Positions 55,368 to 64,000 of a DNA stretch of 64,000 nt are shown piece by piece (within the stretch, counting starts at the first letter, position 1; every line of letters begins with the position of its first letter). Where the stretch lies: positions 434,001 to 498,000 of the forward strand of contig NZ_JAHVXI010000002.1 in assembly GCF_021032705.1 (NCBI RefSeq). The letters are read 5' to 3'. The stretch is from Psychroserpens luteolus. GTDB lineage: Bacteria; Bacteroidota; Bacteroidia; Flavobacteriales; Flavobacteriaceae. The notes beneath the pieces were generated by a model. The model was not told where the DNA came from. It saw only the letters and a list, made by a program, of their open reading frames with translations, and did no database searches. The translations under genes were made by a program, and so were the position numbers.

Positions 55368-55509
55368 TTTATCTACCCACCTTCTCTATCGTTATTGCGG
55401 CATGTATGACTGCAAAAATAGGAGTTGTCAAATTTGTAAACAGGAACAAAATGTCCTGATTACGGGAGCATAGACCCCAAAAACGCGTATATTTATCTCT
55501 ATATAACCA

Positions 55510-55523
55510 GTTATGTGCAAATT
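55510..55523 (+). repeat. Head of module A, left boundary of the array
   Basis: GTTATGTGCAAATT here is complementary to the tail of the same module at 56167-56180 at 13 of 14 positions. No attC-like repeat lies to the left, so this joint may be an attI-like insertion point or a secondary site. ATAAC-CA-GTTAT symmetry surrounds the joint. Confidence 0.6.
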
Positions 55524-55535
55524 GAACAACCTGCA

Positions 55536-56165
55536 ATGAAAGTAATTTACCTAATAATTTTATCTCTTTTTATTTGTTCTTGTAATAGTCAAGAAAACTT
55601 CTACGAAATAGATAAGTCTATTGAAAATGATTTGAAAGTTAATAAAGAGGCAGATGAAATGAGCAAATTTGGAACTGGAAACCTATCATATTTTATTTTT
55701 TCAAATAGCAAAATGGAGAAAATGACTGATGAAAATGAACAATCTGACTTTGACTTTAAAAAAATGATTGATACTACAAACACATTACTCCGAAACGTTT
55801 GTCACTGTCAGCTTAAAAATGATACAATAAAAATTTCAGGTGGAATTTTTTATGGTGGTGGAATAGGATACCAAATGAAAATGACTAAAAATGAATTTAA
55901 CGGACAAATTGTACTCGCATCTGATTCAAAAACTTATAAAAAAACCAAAGATGGAGAATTTATTAAAGAACTTTACCTCGCTAGTGAACATCAAGATATT
56001 CGATTTTATGAAAAGCCTGAATTTAAGATTGACTCTATCTTAAAAGGAAAAATCATACTGACATCGGAAAATTATTATACTAAATCATCTGATGGGTTAG
56101 AAAAAGACCAAACAATAATGAAAATACTCTTCGAATGTAAATTGTCTGAATATGGTGGATTTTAA
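55536..56165 (+). CDS. Cassette A: lipoprotein of unknown function
   Basis: The start is taken at MKVIYLIILSLFICSC (55536), a lipoprotein-type signal with candidate lipid Cys in ICSCNSQ; a further upstream ATG at 55515 would add seven residues outside the signal. The 209-residue protein is Lys/Asp-rich with NVCHCQLKNDTIKISGGIFYGGGIGYQMKM and a C-terminal KGKIILTSENYY. I do not recognise the family. It begins 25 bases after the module head, and its stop is one base before the start of the tail repeat, typical compact cassette packing. Confidence 0.7.
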   Translation: MKVIYLIILSLFICSCNSQENFYEIDKSIENDLKVNKEADEMSKFGTGNLSYFIFSNSKMEKMTDENEQSDFDFKKMIDTTNTLLRNVCHCQLKNDTIKISGGIFYGGGIGYQMKMTKNEFNGQIVLASDSKTYKKTKDGEFIKELYLASEHQDIRFYEKPEFKIDSILKGKIILTSENYYTKSSDGLEKDQTIMKILFECKLSEYGGF

Positions 56166-56173
56166 AAATCTGC

Positions 56174-56391
56174 ACATAACAACGTGTATAATCAATTGCT
56201 TGATTATTGCCTACTCGGAAAATCCTACGGATTTTCCTCTGGTTTGTTTTCTTTTACTAATTTAGACCTAGCCAACGCAACAACTATTAAAGCTAGTAGA
56301 TTTTTGTTCGGCATTTTAAAAAAATGACGCCAACAAAAACGACCTAGGGAAAATAATCACCGAAGGTAAAACATACACGAACACGTTGTAC
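56174..56391 (+). repeat. attC-like site 1 (between modules A and B)
   Basis: The site runs from ACATAAC (R''-like) through AACGTGTATAATCAATTGCT, an inverted GAAAATCC/GGATTTTC hairpin (about 56218-56236), a TTTTACTAATTTAGACC segment, and CATACACGAACAC to GTTGTAC (R'-like, joint at 56385/56386). At 218 bases it is the longest of the set, with extra sequence in the right half. Confidence 0.75.
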
Positions 56392-56407
56392 AACATTACC
56401 AAGAACT

Positions 56408-56926
56408 ATGGGAATATTTGATTTTTGGAAGAAAAAACGAAACTTTGAATTGAATACCGAGGATGTTCCTGTTTACAAGAAAATAACGGTTGATTTACAG
56501 AATAAAACGCAGGCTGAAAAAGGAACTGTTGAAAAGTATTGGTTTGAGAACGAAAATATTGGACTAAAAAAAACTTTGTTTCATAGGATTTCAATTCCAT
56601 TAAAACCATTTGACTCTGGAATTGAATACGAATCGCAACCAGTTGAAACCATAATGAGTATTGAGTGGATGAATTTGAATTTACCTAATCCAGATGAATT
56701 GGATGGTATATCAATTAAAACCGATAAAGATTCTGAAATAGAAGCTTCCGTATATATTGGAAATGCTCATAATTCTTTTGATATTTTTATGCTGACTTTG
56801 AATAAAATTGACGAAAGAAATTACAGAGCAATCGGAAAAATAATGGTTGATTTCGAACACGAAATGGTTGCTAATAACGAGACTTTCGAATTTGACACAA
56901 CAATTGAGTTTAATAGAACTGAATAA
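56408..56926 (+). CDS. Cassette B: hypothetical protein
   Basis: This 172-residue soluble protein begins MGIFDFWKKKRNFELN. It continues with HRISIPLKPFDSGIEYESQP and IGNAHNSFDIFMLTLNKIDE, then a strand-rich end (AIGKIMVDFEHEMVANNETF). No signal peptide, membrane helix or known motif is seen. It starts 22 bases after the G|TT joint and ends 4 bases before the tail repeat. MGIFDFWKKK-type starts are common in small proteins of toxin-immunity neighbourhoods, but no function can be assigned. Confidence 0.68.
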   Translation: MGIFDFWKKKRNFELNTEDVPVYKKITVDLQNKTQAEKGTVEKYWFENENIGLKKTLFHRISIPLKPFDSGIEYESQPVETIMSIEWMNLNLPNPDELDGISIKTDKDSEIEASVYIGNAHNSFDIFMLTLNKIDERNYRAIGKIMVDFEHEMVANNETFEFDTTIEFNRTE

Positions 56927-56939
56927 TAAAAATAACGTT

Positions 56940-57124
56940 GCACAACAACGTGCATAGCCAATTGCTAGTTCTGTGTGTACTCGGACACGAACGCAGCGAA
57001 CTGGCGTTAGCAAGATCCTATGGATCTTCCTCTGGTTCGTTTTCTTTTGCTAACTTTAACCTAACCAACGCAACACACGAGCGAAGCGAACTGGCGAAGC
57101 AAACCATACACAAAACCGTTGTGC
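56940..57124 (+). repeat. attC-like site 2 (between modules B and C)
   Basis: R''-like GCACAAC (56940-56946) is followed by AACGTGCATAGCCAATTGCT, a palindrome around GATCCTATGGATC, TTTTCTTTTGCTAACTTTAACC and CATACACAAAACC before R'-like GTTGTGC (57118-57124). The outer boxes are perfectly complementary. Repeated GCGAACTGGCG motifs occur on both sides of the hairpin. Confidence 0.75.
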
Positions 57125-57138
57125 TTAATTTGAAAAAC

Positions 57139-57510
57139 ATGTTTTGGAAAGCGAAGAATAAACTTAAACCAAAAGAGGATTTTTATTCCAAAATAGAAAA
57201 TTACTATTTAGATAAAGCTTTGGGGAAGATCCCAAAAGACTTACTTAATGATTTATTCTCTTTAATTACAAGAGACCAATATAACTCATACGGAATCAAA
57301 TGGCATGATTATCCAAAATCACGAAAACGTTACTCTGAATTTAAAATAAGTGATCTTGAGCATCCATATACTCAAAATGATATTATAGTTTTCTTTAAAA
57401 AAAGAGATAAAGTAAATTATAAACTTTACTCTTCTTTATTGTTAAATATGTCAGAACAGGAGATAGTTGAATTCGAAATAAGACGTGAAGAATTCGAAAG
57501 TTATTTTTAA
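57139..57510 (+). CDS. Cassette C, gene 1: hypothetical protein
   Basis: The start is taken at MFWKAKNKLKPKEDFYSKIE (57139), 20 bases after the joint; the longer open frame from 56938 only reads through the repeat and is rejected. The 123-residue product is charged and soluble, with LGKIPKDLLNDLFSLITRDQ, GIKWHDYPKSRKRYSEFKIS and NMSEQEIVEFEIRREEFESY. No family is recognised. It is 6 bases before the second gene of the module, so the two are probably functionally linked. Confidence 0.6.
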   Translation: MFWKAKNKLKPKEDFYSKIENYYLDKALGKIPKDLLNDLFSLITRDQYNSYGIKWHDYPKSRKRYSEFKISDLEHPYTQNDIIVFFKKRDKVNYKLYSSLLLNMSEQEIVEFEIRREEFESYF

Positions 57511-57516
57511 ACACCT

Positions 57517-57873
57517 ATGAAAAAATTCTATAATATTCTAAAGAAAATGGAATTTCGGCCTGCAATGTGGACTGGAGAAACAAGTTTAAAAAGTATTAGA
57601 ATTTTTCTAAATGGATATTCTATAGCGCTTCGTGAGCATAATATTTTACAATCATCAGAAGAATTAGAAATAAACTTTCATGATTGGATTGCTAACAAAT
57701 TAGGATTCTATGAGTCAACTTCAGGTTGGCCCAATATGATTTTAGCAGTAACTATAGGTTTAAATCCAAAAAGCATAAAATGGGAAAATTATGATTCTAA
57801 AGTTACTAAGGAACAACATGAAAAATCAATCAAAAAGTTTTATGAACTACTTGAAGAATTCATGAACGAATAA
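57517..57873 (+). CDS. Cassette C, gene 2: hypothetical, immunity-like protein
   Basis: This 118-residue acidic, mostly helical protein has MKKMEFRPAMWTGETSLKSI-like start sequence, NFHDWIANKLGFYESTSGWP in the middle and KSIKKFYELLEEFMNE at the end. I recall small proteins with the F-x-W-x5-F-x4-S-x-GW pattern near toxin systems as putative immunity proteins, but the match is weak. The stop codon is directly at the start of the tail repeat. Confidence 0.62.
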   Translation: MKKFYNILKKMEFRPAMWTGETSLKSIRIFLNGYSIALREHNILQSSEELEINFHDWIANKLGFYESTSGWPNMILAVTIGLNPKSIKWENYDSKVTKEQHEKSIKKFYELLEEFMNE

Positions 57874-57880
57874 AAACTAA

Positions 57881-58011
57881 GCACAACAACGTGTATAATT
57901 AATACTCAACTTCTACTCCATTTAAAATTTATATCTTTAAACAACTGATTTGCTACCATTGAAAATCCTGCGGATTCTCAATCGCACAAACCATACGCAA
58001 ACACGTTGTAA
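57881..58011 (+). repeat. attC-like site 3 (between modules C and D)
   Basis: R''-like GCACAAC (57881-57887), AACGTGTATAATTAATACTC, hairpin GAAAATCCTGCGGATTCTC (57961-57979), CATACGCAAACAC and R'-like GTTGTAA (58005-58011). At 131 bases it is the shortest and closest in size to classical attC sites. Confidence 0.75.
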
Positions 58012-58014
58012 CCA

Positions 58015-58035
58015 ATGCAAAAAAATCATTACTGA
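58015..58035 (+). other. Six-codon leader ORF at the head of module D
   Basis: ATG within the cassette head encodes MQKNHY, and its TGA is directly followed by the ATG of the transporter gene (MQKSVF). Such a mini-ORF could deliver ribosomes to the next start by stop-start coupling, as known for ORF-11 in class 1 integrons. The resemblance of MQKNHY to MQKSVF suggests a small local duplication. Confidence 0.4.
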
Positions 58036-58830
58036 ATGCAAAAATCGGTATTTGAAATTACCAAAATGGATTGTCCTTCAGAAGAAAACCTAATCCGAAT
58101 GAAATTGGATGGAATTTCAGGTATTGCTAATTTAGATTTTGATATTCCCAACCGAAAATTAACCGTTTTTCACAGTGAAGAGAATGAATTAATCGAAAAG
58201 TCAATTCTTGAACTGAACTTGGGCGGAAAAAAAATCTTGACTGAGCAAACAGACCGAATAAATTTCAAAGAAAATGCAAACCAAAAAAAACTACTTTGGT
58301 CAGTACTTGCAATCAACTTTACTTTTTTTCTAATCGAAATGACAACTGGAATAATCTCAAAATCAATGGGATTAGTTGCGGATAGTTTAGATATGCTTGC
58401 CGACAGCTTTGTTTACGGAATTAGCCTGTTTGCAGTTGGAGGAACGCTGATTAGGAAAAAACGGATTGCCAAACTTGCTGGCTATTTTCAAATCATTTTA
58501 GCTGTTATTGGATTTATAGAAGTTTTAAGACGATTTTTCGGAGAAGAAAGACTTCCAGATTTTTCGACAATGATTATCGTTTCAATTTTTGCTCTTATCG
58601 CTAATGGAATTTGTCTTTATATATTACAAAAATCAAACAGTAAAGAAGAGGCGCATATGAAAGCAAGTATGATTTTTACTTCAAATGATGTTATTATTAA
58701 TTTAGGAGTAATAATCGCAGGTGTCCTTGTTAATTGGTTAAGTTCAAGTAAACCTGATTTAATTATTGGAACAATAGTTTTTGTTTTAGTTATTCAAGGT
58801 GCAATTCGAATTTTAAAACTTGGAAAGTAA
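58036..58830 (+). CDS. Cassette D: HMA-CDF cation transporter
   Basis: This 264-residue protein joins an N-terminal heavy-metal-associated-like domain (about 1-70; FEITKMDCPSEENLIRMKLD) to a cation diffusion facilitator-like membrane domain with about five or six helices (GLVADSLDMLADSFVYGISL contains the first metal site; MIFTSNDVIINLGVIIAGV the second). The HMA motif has only one Cys (MDCPSEE instead of MxCxxC). Relatives with this fusion occur in Bacteroidetes and are assumed to export metal ions. It is the only membrane transporter in the array. Confidence 0.85.
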   Translation: MQKSVFEITKMDCPSEENLIRMKLDGISGIANLDFDIPNRKLTVFHSEENELIEKSILELNLGGKKILTEQTDRINFKENANQKKLLWSVLAINFTFFLIEMTTGIISKSMGLVADSLDMLADSFVYGISLFAVGGTLIRKKRIAKLAGYFQIILAVIGFIEVLRRFFGEERLPDFSTMIIVSIFALIANGICLYILQKSNSKEEAHMKASMIFTSNDVIINLGVIIAGVLVNWLSSSKPDLIIGTIVFVLVIQGAIRILKLGK

Positions 58831-58840
58831 AAAGCACAGG

Positions 58841-59001
58841 TTATAACAACATGTATAATCAATTGCTCATTCTGTGTATACTCGGACACAAGCGTAGCGA
58901 ACTGGCGCAAGCAAAATCCTGCAGATTTCCTTAATGATCCGTTCCCTTTTACTATCTTAGACCTACCCATCGTAACTAAAGCATACACGAACACGTTGGC
59001 A
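58841..59001 (+). repeat. attC-like site 4 (between modules D and E)
   Basis: R''-like TTATAAC (58841-58847), AACATGTATAATCAATTGCT, GCGAACTGGCG, a partly decayed hairpin AAAATCCTGCAGATTTCC, CCTTTTACTATCTTAGACC and CATACACGAACAC before R'-like GTTGGCA (58995-59001). R'' pairs poorly with this R' but well with the head of module D. Confidence 0.75.
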
Positions 59002-59033
59002 ATAATTAATATCGATTGAGATAATTCATAAGA

Positions 59034-59885
59034 ATGAATCGTGAAATAATAGATATAAATGATTACACAATCTTGTTGGAAGAGGCTTCTACCGATACTA
59101 ATTTAATAGATTCATGTTTTTTTGACGAGCCTGTAATAGCTATCGCCTTTTATGGCGCAGGTGATGTTGGACTTAAGGTAAAATTTGATGGGAAAGCCAA
59201 AGAATTCCATCACACCAAAGGTATGGTACTATCATTTTATGCAGATAATATGGTAGAGTTTGAACATCATGTTTCCAAACTAAAATCGCTACAATGTTTA
59301 GTAATCGCTACAACAATAAAAAACATAGACAAATTACCTAATGGTGAAGGTCAATTCTTGGAACAATTTTTATATCAATTAATTCACCCAAAAGATCATT
59401 ATGTTGAAGGCCCAGTATTCAATATGAGCCCAGAAATGTTTCAATTAGTTGAACAGTTCTTCATCAATACTTACGAGGGTGAGATTAAAATGATGTTTTA
59501 TAAAAGTCATATCACAGCTTTACTTTCTCATTATTTTGGACAATTGGCAAAACAACAAAACACAACACTTAATACTTCGCAAATAGAAAAAATCAATCTT
59601 GCTCAAGAAATTTTATTATCCAATTTAGAAAACCCACCTTCCTTAACAGAATTGGCCAACAGGATTGGAACCAACACTAATAAGCTTAAAATAGAGTTTA
59701 AAGCACAGTTTGGCGTTCCTGTTTTCAAATACTTACAAAATGAACGCTTAAAAAAAGCCTATAGTTTAATTAAAAACGAACAAAAAACTATTCAAGAAGC
59801 CGCTTGGGCTGTAGGTTACGATAGTTTAGGTTCTTTCTCTAACGCTTTTGAAAGAAAGTTTGGCTACAGACCTAGCCAAGTATAA
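59034..59885 (+). CDS. Cassette E, gene 1: AraC family transcriptional regulator
   Basis: This 283-residue protein has an N-terminal effector domain (about 1-185) and a C-terminal AraC DNA-binding domain: LTELANRIGTNTNKLKIEFK as the first helix-turn-helix and IQEAAWAVGYDSLGSFSNAFERKFGYRPS as the second. It lies upstream of an NmrA-like gene in the same module. Two 20-bp direct repeats 21 bp apart in the gap between them are its probable binding sites, so module E appears to be a self-contained regulated unit. Confidence 0.87.
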   Translation: MNREIIDINDYTILLEEASTDTNLIDSCFFDEPVIAIAFYGAGDVGLKVKFDGKAKEFHHTKGMVLSFYADNMVEFEHHVSKLKSLQCLVIATTIKNIDKLPNGEGQFLEQFLYQLIHPKDHYVEGPVFNMSPEMFQLVEQFFINTYEGEIKMMFYKSHITALLSHYFGQLAKQQNTTLNTSQIEKINLAQEILLSNLENPPSLTELANRIGTNTNKLKIEFKAQFGVPVFKYLQNERLKKAYSLIKNEQKTIQEAAWAVGYDSLGSFSNAFERKFGYRPSQV

Positions 59886-59926
59886 AATTCTTTTCGAATA
59901 AATCATAATTCTTTTTGAATAAGTCA
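59886..59926 (+). promoter_or_regulatory. Tandem AraC-type operator repeats
   Basis: The repeat AATTCTTTTCGAATAAATCA (59886-59905) recurs at 59907-59926 as AATTCTTTTTGAATAAGTCA, 18 of 20 identical, at a 21-base period. Two-helical-turn spacing is typical of AraC-family half-sites. The repeats end 17 bases before the -7 box at 59944. Confidence 0.7.
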
Positions 59927-59943
59927 CTGGTTCACAGCTACAA

Positions 59944-59951
59944 TAGATTTG
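59944..59951 (+). promoter_or_regulatory. -7 box of the NmrA-like gene
   Basis: TAGATTTG is a perfect TAnnTTTG element, 25 bases before the ATG at 59977. No TTG element is found at normal spacing, consistent with an activator-dependent promoter using the repeats at 59886-59926. Confidence 0.6.
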
Positions 59952-59976
59952 TACCATAATTCAAAAAACAAAAATT

Positions 59977-60813
59977 ATGAAATCAAACATTTTAGTTATC
60001 GGAGGAACCGGAAAAACTGGTCGCCGAGTAGTCGAGCAATTACAAAACAAAGGAATTGAGCCAAGAATTGGTTCAAGAAATGCATCACCAAGCTTTGATT
60101 GGGACAATAAAAATACTTGGGTAGATGCCTTAAACGGCATTGAAAAAATGTATGTTACTTATTATCCTGACCTAGCAGTTCCAGGAGCTAAAGAAGCCAT
60201 AGAGAGTTTAACTCATTTAGCCATAGAATTAGGAGTAAAAAAAATGGTTTTACTTTCAGGAAAAGGTGAAACTGAAGCTGAAGCTTGTGAAAAAATTGTT
60301 ATGGATTCTGGCATAAATTACACGATCGTTCGAGCCTCGTGGTTTAACCAAAATTGGAGCGAAAGTTTCTTTTTAGACCCTATTCTTTCAGGAGAAGTGG
60401 CATTACCAATGTCTGATGTTTTAATTCCATTTGTAGATGCAAATGATATTGCAGAAGTAGCAGCAACTGTATTATTGGATGACACTTATAATAGTGAAAT
60501 TATTGAGGTAACTGGTCCAGAATTAATCACGTTTAAAGATGTTGTGAATATCATTTCAAGGACTAGTAATAGAAAATTAAACTTCTATGACATCACATTA
60601 GAACAGTATATTAATGGTATGAAGCAAATACAAATTCCTAATGATGTTGTTTGGTTAATCGAGTATTTATTTAGTCATGTTTTAACCAATCCAAAGAATC
60701 AACTGGTAGTTAATGATATTGAACGTGTTCTAGGCAGAAAAGCGAAAACATTTCTAGAATATGCACAAGAAACGGTTGAAACTGGGATTTGGAATCAAGT
60801 TGAAGTCCATTAA
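59977..60813 (+). CDS. Cassette E, gene 2: NmrA-like NAD(P)-binding protein
   Basis: This 278-residue atypical short-chain dehydrogenase has the N-terminal dinucleotide motif VIGGTGKTGRRVVEQL, then VKKMVLLSGKGE, YTIVRASWFNQNWSESF and FVDANDIAEVAATVLLDD, all typical of the NmrA/AzoB-like family. It may reduce a quinone or act as a redox sensor. Its stop codon overlaps the module tail. Expression is probably controlled by the preceding AraC regulator. Confidence 0.86.
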   Translation: MKSNILVIGGTGKTGRRVVEQLQNKGIEPRIGSRNASPSFDWDNKNTWVDALNGIEKMYVTYYPDLAVPGAKEAIESLTHLAIELGVKKMVLLSGKGETEAEACEKIVMDSGINYTIVRASWFNQNWSESFFLDPILSGEVALPMSDVLIPFVDANDIAEVAATVLLDDTYNSEIIEVTGPELITFKDVVNIISRTSNRKLNFYDITLEQYINGMKQIQIPNDVVWLIEYLFSHVLTNPKNQLVVNDIERVLGRKAKTFLEYAQETVETGIWNQVEVH

Positions 60814-60817
60814 CTAT

Positions 60818-60957
60818 TGTCAACAACGTGTATAGCTCATTGTGGCTGAATTACTTCGTCAGTTCGCTGCGCTCGTGTCATTGCAATTTGCTATCTTTCG
60901 GTTACGGCGGAAAATCAACTATGATTTTCCGCAACAAACCATATAAACACGCTGTAC
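60818..60957 (+). repeat. attC-like site 5 (between modules E and F)
   Basis: R''-like TGTCAAC (60818-60824), AACGTGTATAGCTCATTG, a long GCGGAAAATC-AACTAT-GATTTTCCGC hairpin (about 60907-60932), CAAACCATATAAACAC and a variant R' GCTGTAC (60951-60957). This is the only joint with GCT in place of GTT. Confidence 0.72.
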
Positions 60958-60969
60958 ATAATGCATAAA

Positions 60970-61791
60970 ATGAAAAAACTATCAATACTTCTTATTTCAG
61001 TCTTTTTGAGTAACCTATGTGTTTTCGGACAAAATGAGGTTGAAAGTTGGGAATCATATATAGCTTCTTACGAAGAAAATAAACCAGGATCTACTACTGT
61101 AAGAATGGATATCTTCAATCAAACTCCTATCCCAGAATATCAATATGTTCTAGTTACTGGAATCAAATACGAAAGTAAAAGAGAAGATGGATTTCCTGAA
61201 GATGAAACTTTTAAATTGTTGCACAAACTTGGAGATGAACTCGTTGAACTTATGAATAAAAACTCTGAGAATATTTTTGTTGGTTCGTTCATGTTTGAGT
61301 ATGAACGTCTTGAATACTTTTATATTAAAACAGATAATGGAATTGAAAATAAACTAAAAGAATTTTATAATTCAAATTATCCTAATCATGAACATTACAT
61401 AAATCTTAAGAAGGATACTAACTGGAGTTATTATAGAGAGTTTCTTTATCCTAGTCAGGAGATCATGGAATATCTTGGAGATCAACGGGTAGTCGAAACA
61501 TTAATTGAAGCTGGAGACAATTTAATCAAAGCTCGACGTGTTGATCATTGGGCTTACTTTAACGATGAATCAAAAATGGAATCCTTCAAAAAAGAAATCA
61601 AAAAATTGAATTTTAAAATTCAAAATTCAACAAAAACTGATGATGACTCTACTCCGTTCATGGTGCATTTTTATAGAGTTGACAAGGTTGACCTAGACAC
61701 CATTTATTCTATAACGTCCTCTTTGAGGGAATTGGCAATTTCATATGATGGTGATTACGATGGTTGGGAAACTTCAGTAGAAAAAGAATAA
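60970..61791 (+). CDS. Cassette F: secreted DUF695-RraB fusion protein
   Basis: The start is taken at MKKLSILLISVFLSNLCVFG (60970), a signal peptide; an ATG at 60961 lies inside the module head. The 273-residue protein has a DUF695-like N-terminal domain (SWESYIASYEENKPGSTTVR, then PEYQYVLVTGIKYESKREDG) and a C-terminal RraB-like domain (RRVDHWAYFNDESKMESFKK to YDGDYDGWETSV). RraB in E. coli binds RNase E in the cytoplasm; the signal peptide here makes that role unlikely. The stop codon overlaps the tail of the module. Confidence 0.78.
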   Translation: MKKLSILLISVFLSNLCVFGQNEVESWESYIASYEENKPGSTTVRMDIFNQTPIPEYQYVLVTGIKYESKREDGFPEDETFKLLHKLGDELVELMNKNSENIFVGSFMFEYERLEYFYIKTDNGIENKLKEFYNSNYPNHEHYINLKKDTNWSYYREFLYPSQEIMEYLGDQRVVETLIEAGDNLIKARRVDHWAYFNDESKMESFKKEIKKLNFKIQNSTKTDDDSTPFMVHFYRVDKVDLDTIYSITSSLRELAISYDGDYDGWETSVEKE

Positions 61792-61799
61792 CGCACTAT

Positions 61800-61930
61800 G
61801 CTCAACAACTTTTATAATCAATGCTTACCTCCTGCTTCATTTTTAATTATAAACTCAATCAGACCCAGAGTTTCTCAAAAAAAATACGATTAATAGATCT
61901 GATCGTTTTTTTCCATAAACACAATAACTT
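61800..61930 (+). repeat. Degenerate terminal repeat at the right end of the array
   Basis: GCTCAAC (61800-61806) is complementary to the head of module F as part of an 11 of 16 match. AACTTTTATAATCAATGCT follows, close to the AACGTGTATAATCAATTGCT of other sites. The right half is poorly conserved; CCATAAACAC at 61913-61922 may be what remains of CATACACGAACAC. No clear G|TT joint is seen. A T-rich hairpin at about 61877-61912 may act as a terminator. Confidence 0.5.
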
Positions 61931-61951
61931 TTAAAATTGTAACAACTTTTT

Positions 61952-61978
61952 GTGACATTTTTTTAAATACTCCGTTAT
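61952..61978 (+). promoter_or_regulatory. Possible ECF-type promoter of the sigma operon
   Basis: GTGACA (61952-61957) and CGTTAT (61973-61978) are separated by 15 bases upstream of the sigma gene, and no TAnnTTTG box is present. Self-controlled ECF promoters often have a CGT-containing -10. Assignment is tentative. Confidence 0.3.
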
Positions 61979-62008
61979 TATATAAACCAATCAAAGAAAA
62001 TGTAATTT

Positions 62009-62545
62009 TTGGAACGCCCAGAATTAATAAAAGCATGCAAACAGAATAATCTAAAAGCACAAATGCAAGTATATCAGATGTACAAGGATATGCTATATAA
62101 TGTGAGTTACAGGATTGTTAAAAATGAACACGATGCTCAGGATACTGTTCATGATGCCTTTATAAAAGCGTTTCAGAATATTTCTAAGTTAGAAAACGAT
62201 CTTAACCTTGGGCCTTGGTTAAAACGTATTGTAGTAAATAGCTCACTAGATTTTTTAAGACAAAAAAAGAAATTGGGCTGGCTACAAGAATCGTATGAAT
62301 TTACAGAATCTACTAAAGAAAATGACACCTATGAAGATGTTACACTTAAAGTAGAAGAAGTAAAAAAAGCTATAAACAATCTAAAAGACAAATACCGAAT
62401 TATTATGGTCCTGTACCTCATTGAAGATTATTCGCATAAAGAAATCGCAGAGCAGCTAGGACTTAAAGAAAGTACAGTACGCAACCAATACGTAAGAGGG
62501 AAACGTCTTTTAAAACAACAATTACAAAATAGCGTAGCATTATGA
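62009..62545 (+). CDS. ECF RNA polymerase sigma factor
   Basis: This 178-residue sigma-70 family protein has region 2 (YRIVKNEHDAQDTVHDAFIKAFQNI and GPWLKRIVVNSSLDFLR) and region 4 (KYRIIMVLYLIEDYSHKEIAEQLGLKESTVRNQYVRGKRLL). The start appears to be TTG at 62009, as no in-frame ATG precedes the homology. It overlaps the next gene, a probable anti-sigma factor, by 4 bases. Confidence 0.9.
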   Translation: MERPELIKACKQNNLKAQMQVYQMYKDMLYNVSYRIVKNEHDAQDTVHDAFIKAFQNISKLENDLNLGPWLKRIVVNSSLDFLRQKKKLGWLQESYEFTESTKENDTYEDVTLKVEEVKKAINNLKDKYRIIMVLYLIEDYSHKEIAEQLGLKESTVRNQYVRGKRLLKQQLQNSVAL

Positions 62546-63168
62546 GTTTAGAGACATTTGTAAAGGAAAATCAAAACGCTTTTGATGATAAATCAATGCC
62601 AAAAGCGGCTAGCTTAGATTTTGAGTCGAAACTTAAAAAAGAATTGCATCAAGACACTAGTAAAGTCAGACGTTTGCAGATAATAAGATATTTCTCTGTT
62701 GCAGCAAGTATAGCACTACTAGTCACTTTTGGGTATTGGTATCAGAATAGACAAGAGCATATTGAGAAAAGAGATAATCTGGTATTAGCGTTAGATGAGA
62801 GTGATACCAATAGTTCCCGCTTAGAAGCTATTTATGAGATTGAAGATCAGTTTGCAAATGAAAAGGAGGATGAAAAAATATTAAACGCCTTCTTTAAAAT
62901 TTTAAAAGCTGATTCTGATGCCAATTCTAAAGTCGCTGTGATAGATGCACTGTTAAAGTTTCCGGATAATGCAATAGTGAGGAGTCAACTCATTGATGCC
63001 TTAGGTAATGAAACAGAACCGTTAGTCCAGTTAAAACTCATAAAATCTGTAGCTACACTTAGAGAACAGCGTGCAAAGGCACCACTTAAAAAAATCATTG
63101 AAGATGAAGAATCTTTACCTTTAGTAAAAGGTAATGCTTCAGCTTTATTAGCCATGTTAAATCAATAA
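62542..63168 (+). CDS. Probable anti-sigma factor with HEAT-like repeats
   Basis: This 208-residue protein has a cytoplasmic N-terminal 50 residues, one transmembrane helix (FSVAASIALLVTFGYWY) and a periplasmic helical domain resembling HEAT repeats (DANSKVAVIDALLKFPDNAI, PLVQLKLIKSVATLREQRAK). Position directly after an ECF sigma gene with a 4-base overlap marks it as the likely anti-sigma factor. No zinc-binding ASD motif is visible, so this is inferred from context and topology. Confidence 0.75.
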   Translation: MSLETFVKENQNAFDDKSMPKAASLDFESKLKKELHQDTSKVRRLQIIRYFSVAASIALLVTFGYWYQNRQEHIEKRDNLVLALDESDTNSSRLEAIYEIEDQFANEKEDEKILNAFFKILKADSDANSKVAVIDALLKFPDNAIVRSQLIDALGNETEPLVQLKLIKSVATLREQRAKAPLKKIIEDEESLPLVKGNASALLAMLNQ

Positions 63169-63180
63169 AAACGAATAGAA

Positions 63181-64000
63181 ATGAAACATATAATCACAGT
63201 AATAGCACTACTTTTAATAGTTGGTGTAGGTAACGCTCAAGAGAAAGAAAAACGTATTAAGTTTAATAAGGGAACACTAAAAATATGTTCAAACTCACAT
63301 ATGACCATTAAAGGTTATGATGGTAATGAAGTTATCATAAAGAGTCTTAATGAATCACGCTTTTCCTATTATTATGACTTTGGAGACAAAGACGATAAGC
63401 TTATAGATTCCTTAGAAGAGTCATCAGACAATGCATTGGCGAAGAGTTACTATCTATTGTCTTCACACTATGAAGATAAGGAATTAGAGAAAGGCCTAAA
63501 ACCTTTAGGTAATAAGTCTACCAGTCCAGAGGATAATTTGTTTCTGGATATTACAGAAAAGCCAGGAGAATTAATCATTAAAGATTATAAGTATAACCAA
63601 TCAGGAAATAACAAATTATTGGGTTATACAACGAAGTCTTCGGATAATAATACTAATAAGAAATCTGATGAAAACTTTAGCACTTCATTAAGCGGTTTAG
63701 CTTCAATGAATAATAAATATGAAATTTTAATTCCTAATTCCATTAAATTATCATGGAATGTAGAAGATTGCTCTAAAAAGAATTCTAATACGTTTTTTAT
63801 GCGGACAACTTCAACTCCTTGGAAATTAACTGATTTTAAAGGAGACGTTGAGATTTCAACATCTTATAACTCCATAAGCTTAACCAATGTTAGCGGTCCT
63901 GTAATTGCTAATACTATTGGTGGAAATATCACTGTAGCGTTTGATAAAATTATGCCAACCAAGTTATATTCTTTAGTAAGCAACGATGGTTATATAGATA
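63181..64000 (+). CDS. DUF4097-like exported protein, truncated by the window end
   Basis: The ORF starts with ATG 12 bases after the preceding stop and is open for 273 codons to the last base, so it is 3' partial. A signal peptide (MKHIITVIALLLIVGVGNAQ) is followed by a beta-strand-rich region. The part SYNSISLTNVSGPVIANTIG resembles DUF4097, in which successive strands form a beta-helix. Genes of this kind often follow ECF/anti-sigma pairs in Bacteroidetes and are probably their targets. Confidence 0.8.
   Translation, partial: MKHIITVIALLLIVGVGNAQEKEKRIKFNKGTLKICSNSHMTIKGYDGNEVIIKSLNESRFSYYYDFGDKDDKLIDSLEESSDNALAKSYYLLSSHYEDKELEKGLKPLGNKSTSPEDNLFLDITEKPGELIIKDYKYNQSGNNKLLGYTTKSSDNNTNKKSDENFSTSLSGLASMNNKYEILIPNSIKLSWNVEDCSKKNSNTFFMRTTSTPWKLTDFKGDVEISTSYNSISLTNVSGPVIANTIGGNITVAFDKIMPTKLYSLVSNDGYID

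Follow-up and report, generated by a model that had tools for sequence, protein, structure and literature searches.

In this study, we analyzed a window of 64,000 nucleotides from Psychroserpens luteolus (assembly GCF_021032705.1, contig NZ_JAHVXI010000002.1, positions 434,001 to 498,000), in which positions 55511-61930 hold an array of six gene cassettes on the plus strand with related repeats between them. We propose with high confidence that the array in the window belongs to an integron-like system for gene capture in Bacteroidota. Such arrays begin at an attI-like site, which often lies right after a tyrosine recombinase gene reading toward the array. At the level of sequence, the proposal is supported by the anatomy of the arrays, the covariation between the start and the end of each cassette, the turnover of cassettes from the insertion joint onward and the link to one family of integrases. 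The system works like an integron, yet it is not an IntI integron, as its integrases lack the additional IntI patch and its sites rarely fit the RYYYAAC/GTTRRRY core (tested in G002, a relative). It probably represents a second integron lineage, based on a patchless integrase and standing beside the IntI lineage. This lineage would be a common gene-capture system in Bacteroidia. Its attC code would be distinct, with long self-complementary arms that include a fixed mismatch, and one integrase could feed several dispersed attI-led arrays.

The window array starts at the attI-like joint 55510|55511, and the following cassettes start at positions 56386, 57119, 58006, 58996 and 60952. Cassettes 1 to 5 each end in a recognizable repeat (56178-56385, 56944-57118, 57885-58005, 58845-58995 and 60822-60951, respectively), the sites being ~120-210 bases long. 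A first-pass annotation had described six plus-strand modules between five related repeats with conserved ends (AAC on the left, ACACG|TTG on the right). This description holds, with the addition of a sixth, decayed repeat 3' of the last gene, which runs from 61804 and has its left end retained and its right end judged by eye and unscored. As a correction, modules 3 and 5 carry two genes each. Two of the reported core boxes need correction: the fifth joint reads GCTG, not GTTG, and the first box, GTTATGT, does not stem from a repeat but from the joint of an attI-like leader. This leader, as well as a candidate integrase gene on another contig, had been overlooked. Further copies of the repeat, for which a search had been proposed, are indeed present in the genome of the window (G000; 3.84 Mb in 56 contigs). 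Its left end, AACAACGTGTATAA, occurs genome-wide with at most one mismatch 26 times in forward and four times in reverse orientation, and the backwards pattern three and two times. A sequence model of 20 sites from this genome gives 57 matches at E<=1 (best 7.7e-30), 20 of which are the training sites and match by construction; most matches are clustered, on contigs C11, C22, C32, C43 and C52. An Rfam scan of the window array gave one match at E<=1, far under its gathering score, and a scan of 40 kb of the array of the relative G002 gave nothing at gathering score.

The one-contig genome of G002 contains an integrase gene at 1836357-1837430 and an array of 280 sites from 1838279 to 2101561 (263 kb), within a fetched stretch that extends to 2104000; all 280 sites share one strand. 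The longest open reading frame of a cassette (n=267) runs in the direction of the site in 182 cases and against it in nine, and 76 cassettes have none of at least 60 amino acids. At >=97% identity, 70 of the 267 delimited cassettes group into 19 families; of the 95 pairs of duplicates, 92 have unrelated neighbors on either side. The four cassettes 32-33-34-35 are found again at a distance of 16 kb, with 100% identity but in the order 32-34-33-35. One cassette of ~557-597 bp (e.g., L053:16772-17367) is found in 27 copies at >=97% identity through the array.

In integrons, attC is split upon insertion, with its terminal bases becoming part of the cassette start. Consequently, the start of a cassette should complement its own end and not the start of the next cassette. 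In window cassettes 1 to 5, the start and the end of the same cassette pair at 12, 11, 12, 10 and 11 of 13 positions, compared to 5, 9, 7, 5 and 7 for the next joint; three of the 13 positions are the constant GTT/AAC. The same pattern is found in 266 cassettes of G002, in which positions are numbered from the G of G|TT as 1. At each of positions 4-9, 84-98% of these cassettes are paired with their own end (shuffled 33-54%), and the mean number of pairs out of nine is 6.90 with the own end, 3.36 with the next joint and 3.29 after shuffling, the next joint thus being at chance level. Position 10 is paired in 51% (shuffled 32%) and position 11 never, with an A in 266 of 266 starts and a C opposite in 236 of 266 ends, after which positions 12-14 are paired again (91, 95 and 76%; shuffled 70, 42 and 34%). 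Of 40 cassettes from stretches of eleven other relatives, 29 reach at least 5/6 pairs with their own end and three do so with the next. As in integrons, the arms of the site are therefore complementary within one cassette circle. The outer arm of a site complements the first bases of its own cassette, so that the imperfect palindrome is complete only in an excised, circular cassette. When single-strand DNA folds were sampled, the outer bases were paired, with any partner counted, in 55 of 60 own-circle sites versus 19 of 60 linear sites, and the predicted folds often show a short bulge beside the joint. The core sites of attC, RYYYAAC and GTTRRRY, are not conserved in G002: the joints read GTTR in 269 and GTTRRRY in 20 of 271 cases, and RYYYAAC is found at 19 of 271 ends.

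Comparison with the relative G006 points to turnover of cassettes. In six orthologous arrays of G000 and G006, homology stops at or within ~20 bp of the attI joint. In the 400 bp before the joint, identity is 0.85, 0.88, 0.92 and 0.93 at four attI sites without an adjacent integrase (orphan sites) and 0.91 at the attI adjoining the integrase. Past the joint, these five sites show an identity of 0.48-0.62 over 60 bp and of 0.51-0.55 over the next 240 bp, the baseline for unrelated pieces being 0.50-0.52. The window array is the first of the four orphan sites; its leader is conserved in G006 up to the joint, with a BLAST match extending ~20 bp beyond it, and the sixth locus, on C43, behaves likewise by BLAST. 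Two further leaders (C11:616k and C22:520k) had no orthologue among the fetched G006 loci (identity 0.58 and 0.61). Some cassettes are common to non-orthologous arrays of both genomes. The cassettes, which share one orientation, thus appear to be gained and lost as units, and insertion would occur at the G|TT of an attI located beside the integrase, both features being shared with integrons. The first-pass annotation had proposed to compare related strains at the G|TT joints and had regarded the same six genes in the same order in distant relatives as an argument against a cassette array. G006 has different modules after the same joints, and the one relative for which the orthologous locus was fetched did not show the same gene order. 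The right flank of the window array (61902-63500) corresponds to L067:426-4020 in G006, on another contig and a few kb before its integrase, and the left flank lies elsewhere in G006, which indicates a rearrangement with a breakpoint in the array region.

Four proteins of G000 exceed the Phage_integrase cut-off: an XerD-like protein, an XerC-like protein, one with a Phage_int_SAM_5 domain and P0002. The latter is a tyrosine recombinase of 375 amino acids encoded on a contig other than that of the window (C52:129984-131108). About 70 bases past its gene, an attI-like joint is followed by an array on the same strand. The absence of an integrase, as stated in the first-pass annotation, applies to the array itself, a candidate lying elsewhere in the genome. 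A search for an IntI-type recombinase had been advised; the genome has this tyrosine recombinase followed by an array, but it scores 199.2 bits with TIGR02249 versus a cut-off of 265, which none of the four proteins reaches. With NF040815 (XerA-type; cut-off 220), P0002 scores 225 bits. The integrase of G002 reaches 209.8 bits, just under this cut-off, and 198.3 bits with TIGR02249. The first-pass annotation had offered two options, an integrase-less cluster and a related Bacteroidetes cassette system, perhaps an undescribed one; the evidence favors the latter.

The array-associated integrases lack the ~42-residue IntI patch. In the alignment of P0002 to IntI4 (PDB 2a3v), 65 residues of IntI4 stand opposite 22 of P0002 between two aligned parts. 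Counting the frames that hold both boxes, some of them from overlapping integrase loci, the 152 matched frames, representing 135 distinct proteins, have 88-90 residues from the box I Arg to the box II His, compared to 131 in 11 of 11 TIGR02249 proteins. According to the available part of PMC3053210, VchIntIA contacts extrahelical bases via residues including K209, Y210, W219, P232, H240 and H241; in the IntI4 alignment, these residues map to the stretch without a counterpart in P0002. Most aligned members of the family have about 100 amino acids ahead of the core-binding domain. An AlphaFold model of P0002 of moderate quality (pLDDT 80.7, pTM 0.49), used solely for fold matching, gave XerA (5hxy) as first and IntI4 (2a3v) as second Foldseek match. 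In a tree of 72 rows, which is midpoint-rooted and carries long-branch warnings, 60 rows of the new family lie on one side of a branch (support 89/86), and another branch (100/99) sets off 10 IntI rows. Both groups are separate from the two Xer rows, which represent XerC and XerD of G000 itself. A place of the new family beside IntI in this tree is suggestive only. Sites follow the gene on its strand in 15 of 18 fetched integrase loci with >2 kb downstream. In the relative G005, two type-A integrases (C1:140097-141209 and 180302-181414) have one in-frame stop each within the match, and a third, more distant integrase has none.

The system is widespread. At E<=0.1, the site model matches 39 of 57 genomes, the own genome included, namely 22 of 22 relatives of the same genus (G013 and G017 weakly), 10 of 11 from other genera of the family and six of 23 beyond, mostly weakly. 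The figures for named genomes rest on the best 80 integrase loci among the matches listed, which by record titles are from Bacteroidota except for six; carriers are, for example, Winogradskyella, Arenibacter, Aquimarina, Algibacter, Pontibacter, Algoriphagus and Flavobacterium. In 18 of the 24 such loci with a recognizable joint and >1.5 kb downstream, the first cassette gives a perfect 6/6 match, compared to 4.2% of cross comparisons. Chains of 1-10 cassettes are found in 22 of 34 named loci with >2.5 kb downstream, two or more in 15, and in two of 34 controls; as the pairing rule is symmetric under reverse complement, only reversed sequence served as control. In a class-wide sample, in which the best few candidates per genome were scored and integrase matches, not arrays, were counted, hits to the integrase profile at E<=1e-60 were obtained in 152 of 295 genomes, and a curated IntI is present in one of the 295. 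In a phylum sample, TIGR02249 exceeds its cut-off in 84 of 296 genomes, and one of 86 genomes with any match belongs to this class. Related integrases also occur in metagenome-assembled genomes labeled Desulfurellales, Nitrospirae, WOR-3, Deltaproteobacteria and Undinarchaeales (L150, L155, L167, L173 and L193), some of them preceding attI-like joints, with misbinning being possible. Matches to P0002 at E<=1e-15 were obtained for 720 plasmid records, all at <60% identity; plasmid tyrosine recombinases (e.g., of Acinetobacter and Persicobacter) are 41-58% identical to all or part of P0002.

We propose that the recombinase releases cassettes as circles and integrates these at attI, whereby folded single-strand attC would be recombined with double-stranded attI as IntI does. 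Because the family lacks the IntI patch, the folded site would have to be recognized differently. A promoter in the attI region would express the first cassettes. TAnnTTTG is the consensus of the Bacteroidetes-type -7 promoter motif; it is enriched 3' of the integrase on the plus strand, which reads into the array, and is present there in 30 of 71 named loci (shuffled 6.9, maximum 14; minus strand 10), some matches overlapping the last integrase codons. In the window, the attI-like leader (55430-55510, plus strand, joint G55510|T55511) consists of an apparent 3'-end remnant of an integrase frame and the insertion site. It resembles, by eye, the stretch after an integrase of G002 with the last codons, the stop and then the insertion site; this integrase is of type B, types A and B of integrase and leader being labels introduced in this analysis. 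The leader has seven copies in the fetched G000 stretches and six genome-wide with at most three mismatches. P0002, the sole integron-like recombinase found in G000, may serve the window attI in trans, which we consider somewhat more probable than the contrary. That the leader was orphaned by deletion of an integrase on the spot was also considered and found no support at the window locus. In four more distant relatives, the neighboring gene is present and the ~0.9-1.4 kb downstream flank gave no site match.

Several observations weigh against the proposed system. Recombination is deduced from sequence comparison alone. Own-end pairing of at least 5/6 is weaker in G000 (5/9) and G006 (5/14), the same script giving 1/9 and 2/14 for the next joint, perhaps because undetected sites merge neighboring cassettes. 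RNAalifold gives no consensus stem or pair on linear sites, which we attribute to each linear site taking its two arms from different cassettes. There is no site match at three of the 18 integrase loci, one of the other 15 (L067) also shows two weak matches on the opposite strand, and 12 of the 34 named loci have no chain. For G002, the starts of 88 of the 95 duplicate pairs are no more than 2 bp from both joints, but the compared cassettes had been pre-cut there. Among 45 alignments of uncut sequence (>=350 bp, >=97%), only one begins within 2 bp of a joint in both copies; 25 have their start and 38 their end within 20 bp of a joint, and most starts lie 14-24 bp ahead of it, in a stretch where the conserved attC end is similar in any case. 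An initial statement that duplicates start exactly at the joints was softened accordingly. The IntI insertion is called essential for integron function in the accessible text of PMC8138268. The same text describes it as not fully conserved in an integron-like subgroup, which suggests that patchless relatives are already known as sequences. Finally, the integrase of G000 is of type A only and the window leader of type B, so that action in trans is what we infer; a type-B gene may sit in an assembly gap.

This difference in type bears on the possibility that the window array is a relic, in which the type-B integrase is gone, the type-A enzyme ignores its attI and only homologous recombination alters the array. 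We regard this as possible rather than probable. It would account for the apparent in-frame remnant of the type-B integrase end in the leader, for the lack of a type-B integrase among the G000 proteins found, for the decay of the last site and for the finding that no near-identical cassette is common to the attI-A array and the orphan arrays of G000. It fits less well with the four orphan attI sites that are at baseline identity past the joint while conserved before it, nor does it agree with the single P0002 match, of type A, that G000 and G006 each gave at E<=1e-40.

The remaining explanations concern the nature of the system itself. An ordinary IntI integron remnant with classic attC, whose IntI is lost or located elsewhere, would share the logic of attI, attC, one orientation and the G|TT joint. 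It is nevertheless disfavored and highly unlikely, given the TIGR02249 scores of the four recombinases, the single curated IntI in the class, the patchless integrases beside the arrays and the scarcity of core sites at the joints and ends of G002. It is also very unlikely that the housekeeping XerC/XerD turn over the cassettes with P0002 as a bystander. Both types of Xer protein are present in G000, but attI joints and arrays follow the family of the 375-residue recombinase, which groups apart from them. Ordinary intergenic repeats of the REP (repetitive extragenic palindromic) or MITE (miniature inverted-repeat transposable element) kind between stable genes would also be dispersed and similar. 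Such repeats predict neither the start/end covariation per cassette and the single orientation of all G002 sites nor the duplicated and reordered cassettes and the placement after an integrase, which leaves this explanation a negligible probability.

Similar to IntI integrons, which are known to spread resistance genes and comprise the mobile class 1 and the sedentary chromosomal superintegrons, the system combines a tyrosine recombinase, an attI and an array of one orientation with a G|TT joint, an attC completed only in the cassette circle and, in the chromosome, very long arrays. It differs from them in the missing patch and in the N-terminal extension of most aligned integrases, in joints that in G002 consist of GTTR and free bases, in pairing at positions 4-9 and 12-14 around a fixed mismatch at 11, in an integrase co-directional with the array and, in G000, in several attI-led arrays for one candidate integrase. 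P0002 resembles XerA in its NF040815 score, which the G002 integrase does not quite match, and in its top Foldseek match. Unlike XerA, XerC and XerD, the family adjoins attI-like joints and cassette arrays, and it stands apart from the genome's XerC and XerD in the tree. The window array resembles a cluster of attC lacking integrase (CALIN) in having no adjacent integrase, yet it has an attI-like leader and a candidate integrase on another contig. Integron surveys, as far as the available parts of the papers tell, take the IntI patch as their criterion (e.g., PMC2426708) or search with IntI profiles and attC models (PMC9024848). The accessible portions of PMC2426708, PMC9668308 and PMC8618304 mention integrons of Bacteroidota or of the Bacteroidetes/Chlorobi group. 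By title and abstract opening, a coverage outside which preprints and most subscription papers fall, we found no description of the system and no match linking integrons with Winogradskyella; an earlier description is possible.

The cassettes of the window, all on the plus strand, carry diverse genes. Cassette 1 (55511-56385) encodes a small hypothetical protein (55536-56165) and cassette 2 (56386-57118) a hypothetical protein (56408-56926), neither with a Pfam match at E<=0.1 or an NCBIfam match at E<=1e-5. The two hypothetical genes of cassette 3 (57119-58005; genes 57139-57510 and 57517-57873) give only Pfam matches under the curated cut-offs, such as DUF6761 for the second gene. Cassette 4 (58006-58995) encodes a cation-efflux protein of the cation diffusion facilitator (CDF) type (58036-58830; Cation_efflux, 2.6e-17) with an HMA-like N-terminus, HMA being under its cut-off. 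Homologues of this gene at 82-84% are found in the fetched array stretches of G006, G022, G002 (twice) and G005. Cassette 5 (58996-60951) carries an AraC-type regulator (59034-59885; HTH_18, 1.2e-16) and an NmrA-family NAD(P)-binding protein (59977-60813; NmrA, 2.4e-15). Cassette 6 (60952-61930, with an uncertain right limit) encodes a protein with DUF695 (5.1e-22) and RraB (1.7e-24) domains (60961-61791), followed by the decayed terminal site. On C52, the first cassette after the integrase (L006:3328-7345) encodes a helix-turn-helix protein, a large methyltransferase and a type II restriction enzyme according to PADLOC models; these matches indicate that arrays can carry defense systems. The first cassettes of C52 and C32 were considered as one and the same cassette, which was rejected as they are alike over only ~110 bp at their starts.

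If the proposal is true, the IntI patch is an addition of one branch and not a requirement of integrons. If about half of the Bacteroidia carry patchless integrons, these would constitute an important, overlooked route of gene flow in Bacteroidota with many uncharacterized cassette genes. The system also opens to testing how a tyrosine recombinase without the IntI patch recognizes a folded strand, and whether integrons predate the patch.

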